A DNA stretch of 64,000 nucleotides from Rubripirellula sp. (GTDB taxonomy: Bacteria > Planctomycetota > Planctomycetia > Pirellulales > Pirellulaceae). Shown piece after piece: positions 17,858 to 25,289 of the stretch. Below the pieces are notes generated by a model. The model saw only the letters and a program-made list of their open reading frames with translations. It made no database searches and was not told the DNA's origin. Each line of letters starts with the position of its first letter. The first letter of the stretch is position 1. The position numbers and the translations under genes are program-made. The stretch covers positions 54,710 through 118,709 of the forward strand of contig JAAXJB010000008.1 in NCBI GenBank assembly GCA_012270065.1, given 5' to 3'.

Positions 17858-19996
17858 TCACTCAGGCACCAGATTCGCTCCACTGTCTGGGAGGTCGATG
17901 TGATATCGATGGCAGGTTGTGCAATTGTCTCCACTCGCACCCTTTCGATGGCAACCGCTGCAAGCCTCGCGAGTCAGCGGCAGGAATTCGTGGTTGGCAT
18001 GGGGCGCTCGTGCGACCACTTCTGTAATTGATAACGCGGGTGATGCTCCATCTGCCACCCGGTGGCAGTGAAGGCAGTTGGAAAGTTCCGCTACGTTGAG
18101 GTGGGACGCGTGACTGAATTTTGTGAACTGACCCATGTCGGATCGAGGTTCACTACGCCATCTGCCGTGCTTGCGTATCGCTCCGGGGTGACAGGTAATG
18201 CAGGAGGCGACCGCCTTGTTTTGAATCAATCGCTGCCGAGTGGGCATGCCCTCGGGAAGTTGGCGGATGATGTCGATCAACGCCTTGAGGACGGGGTCGT
18301 CATGACCCGTTCCCCGGTATTGGATTGCCATCCGCCGGTCATCCCGGAACCATCCACCGGCCGGCAACATCTTCTCAGCGTCAAAAGGCACTCCAGACAG
18401 CGAGTGAGATGCTGGGTCATCACCGCTTTCCCCGGGACTTTCGGATTCCAGCAGGTTGTCTTTGCCAAGTGGCTCAAGATCAAGAGGGTCCGTCTCTGTT
18501 TTCAGACTGGGGCCGAGCAATGAATCTCCTGATGACAAATCCGTTTCCAGCAGATGATCAGATTCTTGCAGACCGTCCAGCAAGTCATCGTCGCCTTCGG
18601 CTTGGGGAACTGCATGCTGTTCTCGGAGTGGTGTTTTTTTGTCTTCCAGCGAATCTTGCCTGTTGTCATCCTCGTCGCCAAACCATCGTTGCTGGGTCGT
18701 CTGGACCAGTTGTGGTGAAAGTGGGCGCAGAAGAGTCTGAATGCTTTCGGGCGAGAGTCCAAGGCGATCGGCACGCTGGATCAAGGCTGATTGACCGTTG
18801 CTGCCTATGTCCTCAAGCAGTTCTCGGATCCCTCTCGCCAGTGTTTCAGCAGCTTCCATGGATTCTGGAGTTGAAACTCCTGCAAAGTCGCCAGCTGGGA
18901 TTTTGTGAAGAGCTTCTGCCATGACAGGATCCGCTTGAAGCAGTAATTCGGTCAAAGGCGAAACAGGACCGTCGTAGAATCCCGTCGCTGCTTCTGGCCA
19001 CGGTTGGACTCTGTTTGCTGATTCACGCGACAGGACCGGCAGGATCAATAGGTCCAGGCCTTCGACGGTCTCCAGTTTCAACGCTTTTTCGTGGCATGTT
19101 GCACAGCCGGCTTGATAGCTGTTTGCGCGTGTGATTTCGTTTTTGGCATCGCGTTGGTGGCACTGTCCACATTCGAAAGGTTTGCTGTTGCCATCATGTC
19201 GATCAGCAGGAAAGTACTTGTTGGCGTGGGTCGCGTGATTGAAAGAAATGTCTCCCCCGCGACCATATGGCCAGTCATGCCAGTCGGGATGCGATGTAGC
19301 AAAGCTGCCAAATCGGTCGGTGTGACAGGTCTGACATTGCACGTCAGAAATGGCCAGAAGGTTCGCTGTGGCACCGTGGTGTTCGCGATGGCAGGTGGCG
19401 CAGCGAATGTTATCAAGCTCGACGGCCGGACCCGGTAACAAATCCTGCCACGTCGCGGAACGACCGGAAAGAGAAGCCAGCCGGGTCCGTGATTTTTTCA
19501 GTTCTGCCAACTGTTCGGCATTGAGGTTGTGGGCCAGTTTCGCAACGCTTCGAGGCATTGTCTTGTGGTGACAGTCCAGACAGGCATCGGTCTGCGTCAC
19601 CTGCTGATGTCCTTCACTTGAGCCATTGAACCATGTCTTGTCCGGGTCGGTTGCCTGTGGATGGCATGCAGCGCAACGCTGTGAGGTGATTGTGCCAGCA
19701 AGAATCTGCGCGTGCGGATTTGAGAGATTGCCAGGTTTGATGATCGCCAGTTGGTGGGGAGATCTCATCATGAACAGCAAAATGCCGAGCAGAATCAGGG
19801 TTGCGATCAACAGTGCCCGGCGACGGCGACCATACCATGACCTTCGTACCTGACATGCCGGTTCCATTGGACAGACACCACGATCGCTTGGACCACGCAG
19901 ACAAGGTTGCTGACCACCACGGCGCCCACACATCCAGCGATCACCTGGGCGATCGTTGTTGGGGGGCAGCGGTAATCGCAGTTCGTCGCGTCGCAT
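17858..19996 (-). CDS. Membrane-anchored decaheme c-type cytochrome
   Basis: 712 residues with ten CXXCH heme-attachment motifs (CAACH, CLDCH, CATCH, CQTCH, CGQCH, CATCH, CITCH, CLHCH, CSGCH, CTTCH), six in the first half and four near the C-terminus. About 250 residues of acidic low-complexity sequence separate them. A transmembrane anchor lies at about 61-77, preceded by a cytoplasmic tail with four cysteines (C23, C32, C42, C48; PCLRGPSDRGVCP), a possible metal or Fe-S site. The heme domain should face the periplasm. It follows the di-heme-b-like gene and the Fe-S/cNMP gene on the same strand, so all three probably form one membrane electron-transfer complex. The donor and acceptor are unknown. 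Confidence 0.88.
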   Translation of the reverse strand: MRRDELRLPLPPNNDRPGDRWMCGRRGGQQPCLRGPSDRGVCPMEPACQVRRSWYGRRRRALLIATLILLGILLFMMRSPHQLAIIKPGNLSNPHAQILAGTITSQRCAACHPQATDPDKTWFNGSSEGHQQVTQTDACLDCHHKTMPRSVAKLAHNLNAEQLAELKKSRTRLASLSGRSATWQDLLPGPAVELDNIRCATCHREHHGATANLLAISDVQCQTCHTDRFGSFATSHPDWHDWPYGRGGDISFNHATHANKYFPADRHDGNSKPFECGQCHQRDAKNEITRANSYQAGCATCHEKALKLETVEGLDLLILPVLSRESANRVQPWPEAATGFYDGPVSPLTELLLQADPVMAEALHKIPAGDFAGVSTPESMEAAETLARGIRELLEDIGSNGQSALIQRADRLGLSPESIQTLLRPLSPQLVQTTQQRWFGDEDDNRQDSLEDKKTPLREQHAVPQAEGDDDLLDGLQESDHLLETDLSSGDSLLGPSLKTETDPLDLEPLGKDNLLESESPGESGDDPASHSLSGVPFDAEKMLPAGGWFRDDRRMAIQYRGTGHDDPVLKALIDIIRQLPEGMPTRQRLIQNKAVASCITCHPGAIRKHGRWRSEPRSDMGQFTKFSHASHLNVAELSNCLHCHRVADGASPALSITEVVARAPHANHEFLPLTREACSGCHRKGASGDNCTTCHRYHIDLPDSGANLVPE

Positions 19997-20083
19997 CGTG
20001 TCGGGTTTCTGTTCTTTCTGTGGTTGAGGGCGGGAATCCGGATTGGATAGACAACCTGCCGGCTAAAAAGCGCCTTCTGGATT

Positions 20084-20905
20084 CTAACCCGCGAAACGAA
20101 GAGCCATGAAACTGTGGATCAGAGAGGTTGCCAGCAGCGCGAGTGTCAAAATACTGTGAAAAGCTACCCACAATCGCAAACGTAATTGCAACGCAAACTG
20201 GTAATCAAGGTCGTCCCGCCGTCGCACCAATGCTGCGAAGCGTCCGGCTGTACTACGGCCCTCGCTTTCCAGATAGCGTTCCAGATCCTTCAAGTCACTG
20301 AGCAGTCTTCGTCTGCGACCTCCTGTCGGCACCAGAACATAGGCGAGCGATGGACGGGAATTGAAGAAAGGACTGAGATGTTGGGTATAAAAGCTGCCAA
20401 GAACGGGGATTCCAACGTGTACGCTGAGTTCCTCCAGCAGCTTCCTGGCATGATCTGCGATTTGTCCGCGGTGCCACTCGACTCTGTCAAAGCGGTGTTG
20501 GCCTTCCACGGCGGTCAGGCGTTTGGGGAGTGTTCGCGAAGCATAGAGTCCGTAAAAACCGCTCAGGGTTACCAGTAGAAAAATGACAGAAAGACTACAT
20601 TCGAATACTCCATTTCCAATCAAATTGGGAACGTGCATCCAATAGACTCCCGCGGTGAAGAAGCCCATGTAAATGTGGACTTGAGTCCAGACGCTCACGC
20701 TACCGACCGGCAGAATCGGCAAGCGGCGGCGCATACCGAACAAGGCCAGTAACAGAAGGCAGCATAACAGCGTTGCACCGGTCAGCAGGGAAACATCAGC
20801 CAATCGACCTGTCTGGACCCAGACAATCCCAAGCATCACGAGCAATGCAAGCAGAGTCGTTGTGATGGCAATGCGCCGGCGATGACGAAAGGAGGAAACA
20901 GGCAT
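20084..20905 (-). CDS. Membrane protein with two His-x13-His helices (di-heme b-type candidate)
   Basis: 273 residues with about five hydrophobic helices (12-30, 38-57, 75-95, 100-120, 245-268). Two helices each carry a pair of histidines 14 apart: H77 and H91, and H250 and H264. This is the spacing used for bis-His ligation of two stacked b-hemes in cytochrome-b-type proteins. A basic cytosolic loop of about 120 residues lies between them. I do not recognise the family from sequence alone. It starts 4 bp after the Fe-S/cNMP gene stop and precedes the decaheme cytochrome, placing it as the membrane step between cytosolic Fe-S clusters and periplasmic hemes. Confidence 0.75.
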   Translation of the reverse strand: MPVSSFRHRRRIAITTTLLALLVMLGIVWVQTGRLADVSLLTGATLLCCLLLLALFGMRRRLPILPVGSVSVWTQVHIYMGFFTAGVYWMHVPNLIGNGVFECSLSVIFLLVTLSGFYGLYASRTLPKRLTAVEGQHRFDRVEWHRGQIADHARKLLEELSVHVGIPVLGSFYTQHLSPFFNSRPSLAYVLVPTGGRRRRLLSDLKDLERYLESEGRSTAGRFAALVRRRDDLDYQFALQLRLRLWVAFHSILTLALLATSLIHSFMALRFAG

Positions 20906-20909
20906 GTGT

Positions 20910-22733
20910 CTAGCTCCGCAGGTCGAGCCACTCCTGCAAGGGTTTTGACTCGGTCAAATCGATTTGGACAAGTGCATCGTGAGGGCAAGCAGCGGCACAT
21001 GCCGGGCCCGATGGAAGCTTGCTGCACATGTCACACTTGGTGGCCTTGACGATGGGCATGTCGGTGATCATGTCGCGGTAAGGACGACCCTGATGGTCAT
21101 AGACTTCGGTCATTCGAATATTGCCATAAGGGCAAGCAGCGGCACATGTGCCGCAACCAACGCAGATCGATTCATGAATTTGAACAACTCCGGATTCCTC
21201 GTCACGCATGATCGATCCGGTCGGGCAGCCAATCATGCAAACCGGATCAATGCATTGCATGCATGCTTCGACAACTTGCAAGCGGTCATGAGACAGTCCT
21301 TGACGGACGAAACGTGGATTGCCGTCATGGGCATTCCCGCATGCCTTGACGCAGTCATCACATCGCGTGCAGCGATGCAGGTCAATGACCATGGCCTGGC
21401 GTCCGTTGTTCAGCCGGCTTTGAACAATGAATTCAAGTAAAGCTGTTTGTTGGAATTGTTGCCCTGTCTCACTTTCGACATCGATATTCCGGGATGCCGC
21501 TGTGTCCTCGTCCCTTGCGTTCTGGCGACGGTCCGCGCCTGATTCTGATTGCTGTTCGATTGATTGCAGCATCAAATCCGCTGCTCTCTGAGGTAACTCT
21601 GTCCGACGGACGTGTGGCAAGATGTCGGCCGCGAACGTTTCTGCCGGTATGAAGAGCGCGTCCAGAAAACCAACGGCCCGTAAAGTGTTTTGTAAACTCA
21701 GCAACGGAGTATTGTCGGGCCGGACGCTGTTGTAAGACAACTCCTCCAGACCAAAGATATGCCCTTTGCCAAGATATGCCGTTGTGCGGTGGGAAGCGCC
21801 GTATTGCTGGGATAGCCTGCCGAATCCACTGCGTACGATTACCAATTCTGTTGGAACACGCCCCGCCTCACAGACGATCGGTTCAGATTCAATTTGTTGT
21901 TCGACGGGCAGATTTCGAGTGCGCTTGTAATCTGCGTTCCATTCGAGTCGACCAAAGGAACGCATCTGCGTGGCTTCCGCTACGCGAAGCAGACTTGGTT
22001 CTGGCAGGTAACGCAGTAACGGCACCTCACGTAAATGGACATTCAGCCAGTGTTTCCGGTAATGATCGTCCAGGCTGGCGGCAAAGCGTTTGTCTCGTCT
22101 GAGAATTCGAAGGCCTTGCCATCTGATTTCCAGTAATGTTGCTTCCGTTGCAGCAATGACCGTGGCTGTTCTTGGAGAACGATACATCGCGGCGACTTCA
22201 CCAAACAGTTCTCCCGGGCCCAGCTCTACACTTGTGTGGTCCCGAAGGACTACGCTGAAATCCTGCAGGAAAATGGCTGGGCGATCATCGATTTGACGGA
22301 TGGAACTTTTGTTTGTCGGTGAATCAACCGCTGTCGTCACCTGCTCCGGTGAACGGGCTTCGGCAACGCGTGGATGCCTGAGGAATTGCCGGATTGTTTG
22401 AAACCACGACATCTTTTCGGGACTGGAGCGACCCATCTGTCCGGGTGAAAGCGAATCCACAATCACATTTGTGCTGCCGGCAAGCACGAGAAATGCACTG
22501 TTGCCATAATCCCCCTCACGAACAATGATCTCACCCGGTTCGCAGCGTTTGATCCGGCAGTCGTTTCGTAGAATGCCTTCCAGAGGGATCGAACGCGGGA
22601 ATGCCTTGGCATCCATGCTCGCAAATGGTTCTCGAGAGCGCAGCCACAAAACGTCTGCATCGTCCATCGACGCATCCATCGGTTCGCTCCATCGCTCGGG
22701 ACGGCGCACAGCGATCGAATCTTCCACCTCCAT
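20910..22733 (-). CDS. Cyclic-nucleotide-binding domain protein with four [4Fe-4S] clusters
   Basis: About 607 residues from ATG 22733; the frame runs to 22886, but the N-terminal 51 residues look non-coding. Two Crp-like cNMP-binding domains come first. The first (about 55-215) is interrupted by a roughly 65-residue insert and retains a phosphate-binding cassette (GELFGEVAAMYRSPRTATV); the second (about 245-370) has a degenerate cassette. The C-terminal 160 residues resemble DmsB/FdhB/NrfC-type ferredoxins with 16 Cys in four groups starting at C455, C491, C524 and C567. There are no membrane segments. It probably senses a nucleotide or small ligand and passes electrons to or from the adjacent membrane cytochromes. 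Confidence 0.88.
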   Translation of the reverse strand: MEVEDSIAVRRPERWSEPMDASMDDADVLWLRSREPFASMDAKAFPRSIPLEGILRNDCRIKRCEPGEIIVREGDYGNSAFLVLAGSTNVIVDSLSPGQMGRSSPEKMSWFQTIRQFLRHPRVAEARSPEQVTTAVDSPTNKSSIRQIDDRPAIFLQDFSVVLRDHTSVELGPGELFGEVAAMYRSPRTATVIAATEATLLEIRWQGLRILRRDKRFAASLDDHYRKHWLNVHLREVPLLRYLPEPSLLRVAEATQMRSFGRLEWNADYKRTRNLPVEQQIESEPIVCEAGRVPTELVIVRSGFGRLSQQYGASHRTTAYLGKGHIFGLEELSYNSVRPDNTPLLSLQNTLRAVGFLDALFIPAETFAADILPHVRRTELPQRAADLMLQSIEQQSESGADRRQNARDEDTAASRNIDVESETGQQFQQTALLEFIVQSRLNNGRQAMVIDLHRCTRCDDCVKACGNAHDGNPRFVRQGLSHDRLQVVEACMQCIDPVCMIGCPTGSIMRDEESGVVQIHESICVGCGTCAAACPYGNIRMTEVYDHQGRPYRDMITDMPIVKATKCDMCSKLPSGPACAAACPHDALVQIDLTESKPLQEWLDLRS

Positions 22734-23191
22734 GATGAGATTTCGTAGGGGAATTGGGTAATCAAGGTCAAGATGAAACAGTGGTTTCGCAACAGAACAT
22801 GCCGCGGAAATTGGGTCCAACGAGCTGCTTTTTCGCGGGATCCAGATGTGTGTGGCGGTTGTTGGCAGCTTGCCAGCTGATGGCATGCGCTACCGGATCA
22901 ACCATCTCCCTCACCCCCACTGTCAAACAGCCATTCACTCAACCAAACTGGCGGGGTATGGATATTGAAGTGATGTGTTGTGAAACACGAATGTCCAGCA
23001 GGTCCGAATTCGAAGATCTCGGTTGGATTGCAGATACAATGGACCGGTTGTCCCAGTTGTGAATCGTTGTTTTGCAATGCCATTGAAGACCCTCGGCACG
23101 GTGTTTCACACCGAGCAACCAACGATTGAACACAGATTACTGACGCCGTCTCTGAACTCTCACAAGCCTTCTGAATCCAGTCAGGAATGAA
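22734..23191. other. 458-bp divergent intergenic region before the phosphofructokinase gene
   Basis: This region separates the minus-strand Fe-S/cNMP operon from the plus-strand pfk gene, so it should contain both promoters. Open frames here lack motifs. A small perfect hairpin lies about 80 bases before the pfk start (CGGTGT at 23099-23104, loop TTC, ACACCG at 23108-23113). It has no T-run, and its role is unknown. No palindromic operator of the Crp type was clearly recognised. Confidence 0.45.
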
Positions 23192-24427: not shown

Positions 24428-25045
24428 ATGTTTTTTTCAATGACTTCAAGACCGCGAAAACCGCAAGCTATCCTGCCCAGTGATAAGCAGCACCACTTTG
24501 GTGGAATTCTGTTCCTTGTTTCGTTGCTGGTGTTTTTCCTGAGCAGCATTCTGCTGTATGGCATTTACGCGTACAGTCGGCGAGGAGATCCGGAATCTGC
24601 GGCACCTTTGCCTTCCATGTTCCTGTTAAGCACTTTGTGCCTTCTGGTGATTAGCGGTCTGGTGCATATGGCTACACGTGCCATTCGACGGGAAAAGCGG
24701 TTGCTCACCAGCATGCTTCTGTTGATCAGTGGTATCACCGCAGTAATTTTTATGGGTCTGCAATTTGATGCGATGAGCGAAATGCTTCAGGGACCAGCCA
24801 TGAATAACGGAACTGGCAAGGGAGTTGCAGGGATGGTGGTTGTCCTTGCGATATTGCATGCGGTGCACGTTGCCGGAGGTGTCGTGGCTCTGACCGTTGT
24901 TGCGATTCGGTCCTGGCTGGGGCGTTATGACCATGAGCGTCATTGGCCGGTGGACTTCGCCGCCCAGTATTGGCACTTTCTGGATGTTGTGTGGTTGTGC
25001 ATGCTACTTGCCTTCTGTCTCACCACTGGTGGATTTGTGCTTTAG
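24428..25045 (+). CDS. Cytochrome c oxidase subunit III-like protein
   Basis: 205 residues with five transmembrane helices (about 27-49, 63-85, 92-112, 130-155, 175-200). The HAVHVAGG stretch in helix four and YWHFLDVVW in helix five are hallmark motifs of heme-copper oxidase subunit III (CoxC/CyoC type). Subunit III supports the catalytic subunit and carries no metal. The catalytic subunits I and II are not encoded here, so this is an isolated copy. It follows pfk by about 87 bp on the same strand. The alternative start at the internal MTSRP (fifth codon) is possible. Confidence 0.88.
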   Translation: MFFSMTSRPRKPQAILPSDKQHHFGGILFLVSLLVFFLSSILLYGIYAYSRRGDPESAAPLPSMFLLSTLCLLVISGLVHMATRAIRREKRLLTSMLLLISGITAVIFMGLQFDAMSEMLQGPAMNNGTGKGVAGMVVVLAILHAVHVAGGVVALTVVAIRSWLGRYDHERHWPVDFAAQYWHFLDVVWLCMLLAFCLTTGGFVL

Positions 25046-25218: not shown

Positions 25219-25289
25219 GCGGGTGTAGTTCAATGGTAGAACATCAGCTTCCCAAGCTGAATACGAGGGTTCGATTCCCTTCACCCGCT
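25219..25289 (+). tRNA. tRNA-Gly (anticodon CCC)
   Basis: A 71-nt cloverleaf: acceptor GCGGGTG pairs perfectly with CACCCGC. The D arm is GTTC AATGGTA GAAC. The anticodon stem TCAGC/GCTGA encloses the seven-base loop TTCCCAA, giving anticodon CCC for the GGG glycine codon. The T arm is GAGGG TTCGATT CCCTT (one G-T pair) with the canonical TTCGA. The discriminator is T and CCA is not encoded. It stands alone between the oxidase-subunit gene and the converging epimerase gene. Confidence 0.97.

Follow-up and report, generated by a model that had tools for sequence, protein, structure and literature searches.

A candidate cyclic-nucleotide-gated electron conduit of the PCC4 type, with dispersed genes, in Rubripirellula

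PCC4 is a putative porin–cytochrome conduit found in iron oxidisers, with Planctomycetes among its hosts, and modelled as leading electrons inward to quinone (He et al., 2017, main text; PMC5566968). As depicted there, it associates a porin with three periplasmic multiheme cytochromes (of 4, 5 and 10 hemes) and with an inner membrane protein of five transmembrane segments that displays an SGXXG motif and two WX3HX13H motifs, and whose likeness to the ferric reductase transmembrane domain (FRD) was noted by its discoverers. A redox gene precedes that of the tetraheme cytochrome and, in Subgroup II, an iron–sulfur gene (pfam13247) lies upstream of that of the inner membrane protein (PMC5566968, main text). 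The present work deals with three consecutive genes of the minus strand, here named A, B and C (Table 1), in a stretch of 64,000 nucleotides (the window) of contig JAAXJB010000008.1 of Rubripirellula sp. (assembly GCA_012270065.1). The window is part of what we label contig C55, in a genome of 7.0 Mb split into 122 contigs. An earlier note, made from the sequence alone, had proposed that these genes form a ligand-gated electron path from cytosol to periplasm. Judged from motifs and gene order, A, B and C match the inner-membrane part of PCC4. On balance, it is probable that they make the inner-membrane module of a dispersed conduit of this type, working outward and controlled by a cyclic nucleoside monophosphate (cNMP).

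Relatives were collected in two ways. For the order set, 196 sampled genomes of the order were searched for B; 62 had a match, 40 of them at E ≤ 2e-31. These 40 are termed B-positive, and the 22 genomes with weaker matches were scored as B-negative, a group that thereby includes the NuoEF clade discussed below and genome G168. The set consists of 40 wide loci fetched through B, out of 66 match places, one of which is the window itself. The named set holds 80 loci reached through A, which are the best-scoring 80 of at least 541 relatives and not a random sample. Their hosts are, by record title, Planctomycetota, Verrucomicrobiota, Alphaproteobacteria, Mariprofundus, SAR324 and Poribacteria; many are metagenome-assembled genomes (MAGs), with titles or bins that may be wrong. 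Since the two sets overlap in genomes, their counts cannot be added as independent. The alignments leave out the broken locus L031 in the order set and, in the named set, A of L075 and L076, B of L143 and twelve short C. Genes were called as greedy longest frames, which hid A and NuoEF in L167 (recovered by tblastn); such calling can conceal genes, so that counts of neighbours are lower bounds.

Gene A joins what look like sensing domains to a ferredoxin-type chain. Its open frame spans positions 20910–22886, and the start at 22733, Met52 of that frame, is preferred over 22886 because it is aligned with the starts of relatives. Pfam recognises cNMP_binding (E = 4.3e-20), Fer4_7 (E = 8.4e-13) and several other Fer4 families, among them PF13247 (36.4 bits for a cut-off of 26.2). 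No DNA-binding domain appears among these matches, and a transcription factor of the Crp/Fnr kind was rejected on that ground. The 16 cysteines, in four ferredoxin-type groups between residues 506 and 634, are invariant in 39/39 rows of the order set and 79/79 of the named set. HycB3 and the iron–sulfur subunit of an aldehyde oxidoreductase are the best sequence matches in the PDB. The cut-off of DMSO_dmsB is missed (49.6 of 214.1 bits); the four [4Fe-4S] cysteine groups are nevertheless present. The modelled iron–sulfur half is of low confidence (block means of 42–78 from residue 491 on), and no inference is drawn from it. Among the best 80 of at least 541 relatives, the nearest to this A belong to a Planctomycetaceae MAG, then to Rhodopirellula MAGs.

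Gene B has exactly two Hx13H motifs, formed by His77/His91 and His250/His264. Two or more occur in 351 of 10,000 shuffled versions of the protein, and the motif alone is therefore weak evidence; chance was rejected on the conservation of these histidines. All four are present in 40/40 rows of the order set (window included). In the named set, Trp73, His77 and His91 are found in 79/79 rows, His250 and His264 in 78/79 (one gap) and Trp246 in 69/79. The SGXXG motif reads S115-G116-G119. An AlphaFold2 model is all helical (mean pLDDT 91.5, pTM 0.83), including helix 3, which fell under the hydropathy threshold used. B has no significant Pfam match: PF01794 (FRD) is not matched at E ≤ 1, and 5 of 24 members of its family match it weakly (best E 0.0029). 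Lysine and arginine abound both in the N-terminus and in the long loop between helices 4 and 5, which suggests that these two parts lie in the cytosol. Such a layout would take helices 3 and 5 from the cytosolic to the periplasmic face, placing His77 and His250 near the former and His91 and His264 near the latter, presumably as ligands of two hemes b.

Gene C matches the cytochrome c7/c3 families of Pfam and has a single transmembrane segment near its N-terminus (residues 57–86). Not one of 10,000 shuffled versions reached even three CXXCH motifs. All ten, together with ten further histidines that are potential distal ligands, are kept in 65/65 rows of at least 600 residues of the named set; in the order set nine of these histidines are found in 40/40 rows and His565 in 34/40. 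Ahead of the membrane anchor, and for that reason probably in the cytosol, four cysteines make a motif kept in 31/34 rows of a close set. Its pattern, W.C...C..GP...G.CP....C, has no Pfam match; it appears in 49/65 rows of the named set and is duplicated in some relatives (a second copy in 12/65). It is missing in Stieleria-type proteins and in a distant clade, and thus is not essential. That it holds a metal or a cluster near A may be proposed as a guess.

Most of what the earlier note had read in these genes stands: three consecutive minus-strand genes, the start of A, the spacing of A and B, the pairs of histidines in two helices of B, the ten CXXCH motifs and the anchor of C. Tandem cNMP-binding domains and four cysteine groups were likewise recovered in A, with the correction that only the first domain has a recognisable binding cassette. 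The placement of the four histidines of B in the membrane is not contradicted by helix assignment and conservation.

Table 1. Features of the A-B-C locus (positions in the window) and, in the last three rows, reductase homologs of other genomes of the window's family (genome:contig:positions). Residues of A are numbered on its open frame.
Feature	Position	Strand	Details
Gene A, tandem cNMP-binding-like domains and 4x[4Fe-4S] ferredoxin-type domain, predicted cytosolic	20910..22733	-	607 aa
CNB1 (first cNMP-binding-like domain) of A, long insert between strands	22101..22577	-	residues 104-262; Pfam PF00027
CNB1 phosphate-binding cassette ELFGEVAAMYRSPRTATV	22158..22211	-	residues 226-243
CNB2 (second such domain) of A, degenerate cassette	21627..22100	-	residues 263-420
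4x[4Fe-4S] domain of A, 16 Cys	20946..21398	-	residues 497-647; Pfam Fer4 families
Gene B, di-heme-b-like inner membrane protein, PCC4 'IMP' type	20084..20905	-	273 aa, 4 bp after A
B helix 3 with W73xxxH77x13H91	20633..20698	-	residues 70-91; AlphaFold2 helix 70-91
B last helix, membrane part, with W246xxxH250x13H264	20102..20188	-	residues 240-268; AlphaFold2 helix 214-271
Gene C, membrane-anchored decaheme cytochrome c	17858..19996	-	712 aa
C N-terminal Cys4 motif (Cys23, 32, 42, 48)	19853..19930	-	precedes membrane anchor
C transmembrane anchor	19760..19816	-	residues 61-79, hydropathy
C ten-heme region	17900..19675	-	residues 108-699; 10 CXXCH
Reductase homolog beside tetraheme gene	G137:C5:327032-329359		
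Reductase homolog beside tetraheme gene	G144:C437:16416-18890		
Reductase homolog beside tetraheme gene	G121:C38:12524-14814		

How far does this locus go with PCC4? B carries both WX3HX13H motifs and SGXXG, and the PF13247-type gene A lies upstream of it. Cytochromes with 4, 5 and 10 hemes are all present in the genome, at three loci: the tetraheme gene is on contig C4 (L159:6653-7690, E = 1.4e-139) and the pentaheme gene on contig C21 (L166:7540-9657, E = 1.8e-218). A porin homolog adjoins the latter (E = 2.9e-107); its C-terminus ends in Phe. No Pfam match was obtained for three relatives in this porin-like cluster, which leaves the beta-barrel putative. Two features differ. The compact single cluster, a defining trait in our reading of the depiction in the main text of PMC5566968, is split here between contigs C55, C4 and C21, A-B-C alone being compact; and the redox gene is absent from the window's genome, if the reductase of relatives described below is equated, as we assume, with that of He et al. 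In the window's clade (L031–L036, L071–L090), the flanks of A-B-C, as far as fetched, yielded no porin, tetraheme or pentaheme gene. The presence of all three elsewhere in the genome means that the electron path need not end at C. The path first proposed, from cytosol to periplasm, was in this respect incomplete, as it left aside these partners encoded in the same genome.

The distant partners do follow B. A tetraheme gene is present in 38 of the 40 B-positive genomes and in none of the 156 B-negative ones (agreement in 194/196), and a pentaheme gene in 37/40. For the latter, positive means E under 1e-200 (39 genomes); 12 further genomes at E ≤ 1e-60 (4e-70 to 6e-65, with partial match to the model) were excluded as another family. 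Fisher values computed on such tables overstate independence because the genomes are related. In the window's family, with 35 genomes, a tetraheme gene accompanies B in 11 of the 12 B-positive genomes and is absent from all 23 B-negative ones. Among B-positive genomes, G113 and G194 are without tetraheme gene, and G113, G182 and G194 without pentaheme gene; the listed completeness is 76% for G194 and 87% for G182. G113, the exception in the window's family, comes from a relative of the same genus. Its locus (G113:C148, L031:6953-10681) has A split over two frames, B interrupted by a stop, and C short. This looks like decay of the whole conduit, in which genes that lie at separate loci in the window's genome would have been lost together; G113 is listed as 99% complete, in a draft of 520 contigs where assembly errors are possible.

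A, B and C themselves stay together in relatives, and the co-occurrence on which the earlier note's proposal depends is thereby borne out. Searching through B gave A at 39 of 40 loci (the remaining one, L069, is a short contig) and C at 40/40, adjoining or within a few kb, with ten CXXCH motifs at all loci save the broken L031. Searching through A gave B nearby in 79/80 loci and C in 75/80. C is lacking at five of these loci: at L113 and L143 the contig ends, L100 has neither B nor C near A, and the other two are L072 and L073. Ten CXXCH motifs are present in 65 of these 75 C genes. The remaining ten comprise eight cut off by the contig end, the short L103, which lies close to such an end, and the broken L076. 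The pairwise distances of A, B and C correlate with r = 0.855–0.882 over 65 shared rows, whereas 999 permutations reached at most 0.087–0.156. On a quick tree of A, the presence of neighbours requires 12 changes for pentaheme, 13 for porin, 13 for tetraheme and 9 for reductase, counts that are inflated by contig ends; pentaheme and porin are each near A in 15/79 rows. On this comparative evidence A-B-C appears to be the stable core and the other parts of the conduit mobile, a picture with which the dispersal seen in the window's genome agrees. In Bythopirellula polymerisocia (L100), A lies with reductase, tetraheme and cyclase genes about 50 kb from B (G127:C5).

If A-B-C is thus the core of a conduit already described in 2017 (PMC5566968, main text), the novelty at first attached to the three genes falls, and the part that remains new is the idea of a gate. 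It begins with the cyclic-nucleotide-binding (CNB) domains of A. In proteins that bind cNMP, a conserved glutamate and arginine of a short cassette make the site for the phosphate. CNB1 keeps this canonical cassette, and nucleotide binding is predicted for it: Gly229, Glu230 and Arg236 are kept in 79/79 rows of the named set, and mean conservation is 0.74 for the cassette positions against 0.54 for CNB1 as a whole, a figure depressed by a gappy insert. The capacity for ligand binding that the earlier note had ascribed to A is therefore not contradicted, as far as CNB1 goes. Residue 240 is Thr or Ser in 60/79 rows; in kinases and channels, one of these at the corresponding position accompanies affinity for cGMP. 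Foldseek aligns the model of the tandem domains with PKA and PKG structures (E = 3.5e-17). Also among the matches is the PKA regulatory subunit of a trypanosome, which has guanosine bound and is described in its title as cAMP-independent; this is a warning that the ligand of A may be a different one.

A source for a nucleotide lies next to the operon in a fraction of the relatives. A class III nucleotidyl cyclase gene is found in 16/80 named loci, always on the opposite strand and between −4.06 and −4.69 kb from A. The cluster is assigned by PF00211 (E = 2.7e-11 in L109) and by PDB sequence matches that are adenylate cyclases. In family f7, 11 of the 21 genomes examined have a cyclase gene no more than 6 kb from A (the 21 being drawn from 27 B-positive ones; a second locus of G190, L064, which ends just beyond A, was not counted). 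Random placement, given cyclase number and genome size, would predict 0.131. Kinship of the genomes means fewer than 11 independent events of linkage; on the quick tree of A at least 5 changes are needed. Four f7 genomes beyond the 21 (G127, G146, G186 and G194) have a PF00211 match within about 1.2 kb of a reductase match. The 11 linked cyclases and the one at L065 differ widely in sequence (median identity 0.39). In class III cyclases a pair of aspartates binds the metal, and an arginine and an asparagine act in catalysis: both aspartates and the arginine are present in 29/29 operon-type cyclases, and the asparagine in 27/29, some of the 29 coming from the same genome in both sets. At L065 a cyclase of the same family stands on the other side of a much-diverged A, downstream and on the same strand, and there both CNB1 and CNB2 have canonical cassettes. 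L118 and L052 have cyclase genes farther away, a more distant one at 8.7 kb and one at +8.8 kb respectively. Two class III cyclases are encoded in the window's own genome, away from A-B-C; one shows a weak FHA match and the other has CHASE2. They were rejected as orthologs of the operon type (18–27% identity).

At the cytosolic end, relatives also offer a plausible donor. A gene for a reductase with FAD, NAD and 2Fe-2S domains is near A in 38/80 named loci, 28 of which have it on the strand of A at a distance of −2.3 to −2.9 kb. A tetraheme gene of the c554 type is likewise present in 38/80, and for 35 of these it shares the strand of A and lies −1.0 to −1.5 kb away. In the distant clade, A has an additional NuoG-like 2Fe-2S/4Fe-4S part (Pfam, L067), and a NuoE-NuoF fusion is encoded directly upstream of A in 9/9 genomes (G104, G124, G163, G042, G049, G175, G076, G171 and G147); G155 and G059, of the same clade, have no A in the stretch and are outside this count. 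No gene of the NuoEF type was found within the 12 kb of L065 (G168), where A has another architecture. Such modules beside A point to NAD(P)H as the probable reductant. The way from NADH to the periplasm is downhill both in redox potential and in membrane potential, and the reverse way uphill in both, which makes outward flow the likelier direction where an NAD(P)H module is present.

Several side observations belong to these neighbourhoods. Some members of the window's family have a tetraheme gene with a reductase homolog still at its side on a contig devoid of A-B-C (Table 1), as a stepwise splitting of the operon would leave them. The only reductase match in the window's genome was rejected, covering half of the model and having its 2Fe-2S domain at the other end; it looks like NqrF, in what we take to be an nqr gene row. 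NuoEF-linked loci encode giant ten-heme proteins (L067:12377-16342, with an LVIVD-repeat match, and L070:9178-13371), possibly a surface module. A COX3-like gene (E = 1e-7) is found near A on the plus strand of the window (24428–25045), with a homolog near A in 6/80 named loci. The sole transfer RNA reported by ARAGORN in the window is tRNA-Gly (CCC), at 25219–25289.

The working that we propose would be as follows. A cytosolic reductant, NAD(P)H acting in relatives through a flavin/2Fe-2S or a NuoEF module, would reduce the 4x[4Fe-4S] chain of A. Electrons would pass from A to the heme of B on the cytosolic side (His77/His250), then to that on the periplasmic side (His91/His264), and from there to the anchored decaheme C. 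The tetraheme cytochrome, encoded at an unlinked locus, would carry them further, to the outer membrane with its pentaheme/porin pair. CNB1, on binding cAMP or cGMP, would toggle A between states that can deliver electrons and states that cannot. The direction of flow, the choice of the nucleotide and gating by its binding are what we infer from sequence comparison. Conservation of the cassette and linkage of the cyclase in relatives have lent the idea of a gate some support. A gate would make sense, as outward flow drains NAD(P)H and membrane potential. We advance with less assurance, as a tentative view, the more specific version, namely that cAMP or cGMP made by the cyclase on the side of the operon in relatives binds CNB1 and opens or closes electron flow from NAD(P)H to the outer membrane, the parallel clade coupling the same kind of gate to its NuoEF/NuoG-like NADH module.

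A number of observations weigh against the proposal of a gated outward conduit. In the window's genome there is no operon-type cyclase, nor any full match to the operon-type reductase of relatives. The reductase is near A in fewer than half of the named loci; the cyclase occupies its operon position in Planctomycetota loci only, the 16 mentioned above, and none was found there in Verrucomicrobiota or Proteobacteria loci of the named set. The cassette arginine 239 is present in 71/79 rows of that set and replaced by His in eight, which all belong to Planctomycetota and fall into two groups on the quick tree, and the cassette Arg is missing in 6/39 rows of the order set; in the window's clade CNB2 has no cassette at all. 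Two Rhodopirellula MAGs (L072 and L073) keep A and B with no multiheme gene in the stretch. Two of the 156 B-negative genomes, G009 and G164, have a pentaheme gene without B. Finally, no solved structure was matched by the model of B with Foldseek at E ≤ 0.001.

Among competing explanations, the one that best survives holds that A is not gated by a cyclic nucleotide, its Crp-like domains binding another ligand (a nucleoside, for example) or merely docking B. The lost cassette of CNB2, the histidines that replace Arg239 and the guanosine-bound subunit among the fold matches speak for it; yet glutamate and arginine are both kept in the remaining 71 rows, the eight exceptions being confined to one phylum, the cassette is better conserved than its domain, and a cyclase gene adjoins the operon in relatives. 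We rate this explanation as rather unlikely.

Next comes the same conduit run inward: electrons of an extracellular donor, for instance Fe(II) or Mn(II), would enter through porin and cytochromes and reach quinone at B, with A an accessory branch. This is the published model of PCC4, which does occur in iron oxidisers (PMC5566968, main text), and a Mariprofundus MAG (L144) has A, B and C along with tetraheme, reductase and porin. Against it, A is the recurrent cytosolic partner of B, and NAD(P)H-type modules adjoin it in 38/80 named loci and in all nine genomes of the distant clade. To bring electrons from the level of Fe(II) to NAD+ is uphill in redox terms and goes against the membrane potential as well. 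We consider inward flow unlikely; B may nevertheless have a quinone branch.

It seems more improbable still that cNMP acts on expression or assembly of the conduit, the neighbouring cyclase having other targets. Second messengers often do act on transcription, and the cyclase gene is divergent, outside the operon; but A lacks a DNA-binding domain among its Pfam matches, and its CNB domains share one chain with the domain that would carry electrons. Least probable of all is an inner-membrane complex that feeds periplasmic reductases only, unrelated to the outer membrane, as the bare flanks of A-B-C in the window's clade would allow: porin, tetraheme and pentaheme genes are present elsewhere in the same genome, and the latter two track B over the 196 genomes, the tetraheme gene doing so within the window's family too.

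We are not aware of an envelope electron conduit under the direct control of a cyclic nucleotide. If the gated outward conduit is real, a single protein would join intracellular signalling to extracellular electron transfer. An NAD(P)H module at the cytosolic end is also suggested by the comparison, and with it outward flow in a conduit earlier modelled as running inward to quinone. It is found in named Planctomycetota strains of Rhodopirellula, Stieleria, Roseiconus, Lacipirellula and Bythopirellula. The main text of PMC5566968 has no occurrence of cyclic nucleotide, cNMP, cyclase, adenylate or cAMP; the CNB1 cassette, the linked cyclase and the NuoEF module upstream of A are likewise not in that main text. 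In the literature covered, which includes few subscription journals, no paper joins all the terms searched for, save PMC12419801, where each occurs once.

It remains to set A-B-C beside the systems that it resembles. A porin–multiheme cluster of freshwater Verrucomicrobia, for which Opitutus sp. GAS368 is named, has been proposed for extracellular electron transfer (PMC5615132, in the text available). It is alike in having a porin beside multiheme cytochromes, and L141 comes from a MAG titled Opitutus sp. GAS368; it differs, in a comparison made by description only, by an eight-heme periplasmic cytochrome (PMC5615132, same text). The likeness to Subgroup II of PCC4, as given in the main text of PMC5566968, extends to porin, cytochromes with 4, 5 and 10 hemes, motifs of the five-segment membrane protein and upstream iron–sulfur gene, as well as, in relatives, to a redox gene upstream of the tetraheme gene. 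In the window's genome, by contrast, the parts are spread over three loci, and no redox gene like that of the relatives was found.

Complexes of the Hmc, Tmc and Dsr type also unite periplasmic multiheme cytochromes c, membrane heme b and cytosolic 4x[4Fe-4S] proteins; to our knowledge, they have no cNMP domains. The complexes of sulfate reducers were rejected as a match, since the curated NCBIfam cut-offs were missed for DsrO (55 of 200 bits), HmcB (34.8 of 420) and TmcA (20.7 of 114). With PKA and PKG, A shares the tandem CNB fold and the cassette of CNB1; it differs in that its tandem is fused to an electron-transfer domain of the ferredoxin type, where that of PKA and PKG acts on a kinase, and in the loss of the CNB2 cassette. 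An analogy in working may be seen in NADPH oxidases (NOX), where electrons take an outward path from an NAD(P)H/flavin module under cytosolic regulation. B resembles NOX and FRD (PF01794) in its two histidine pairs of the Hx13H type on the third and fifth helices (PMC5566968, main text). In the A-B-C system, by contrast, an iron–sulfur protein would stand between flavoprotein and membrane protein, and the outlet would be a multiheme cytochrome in place of oxygen.

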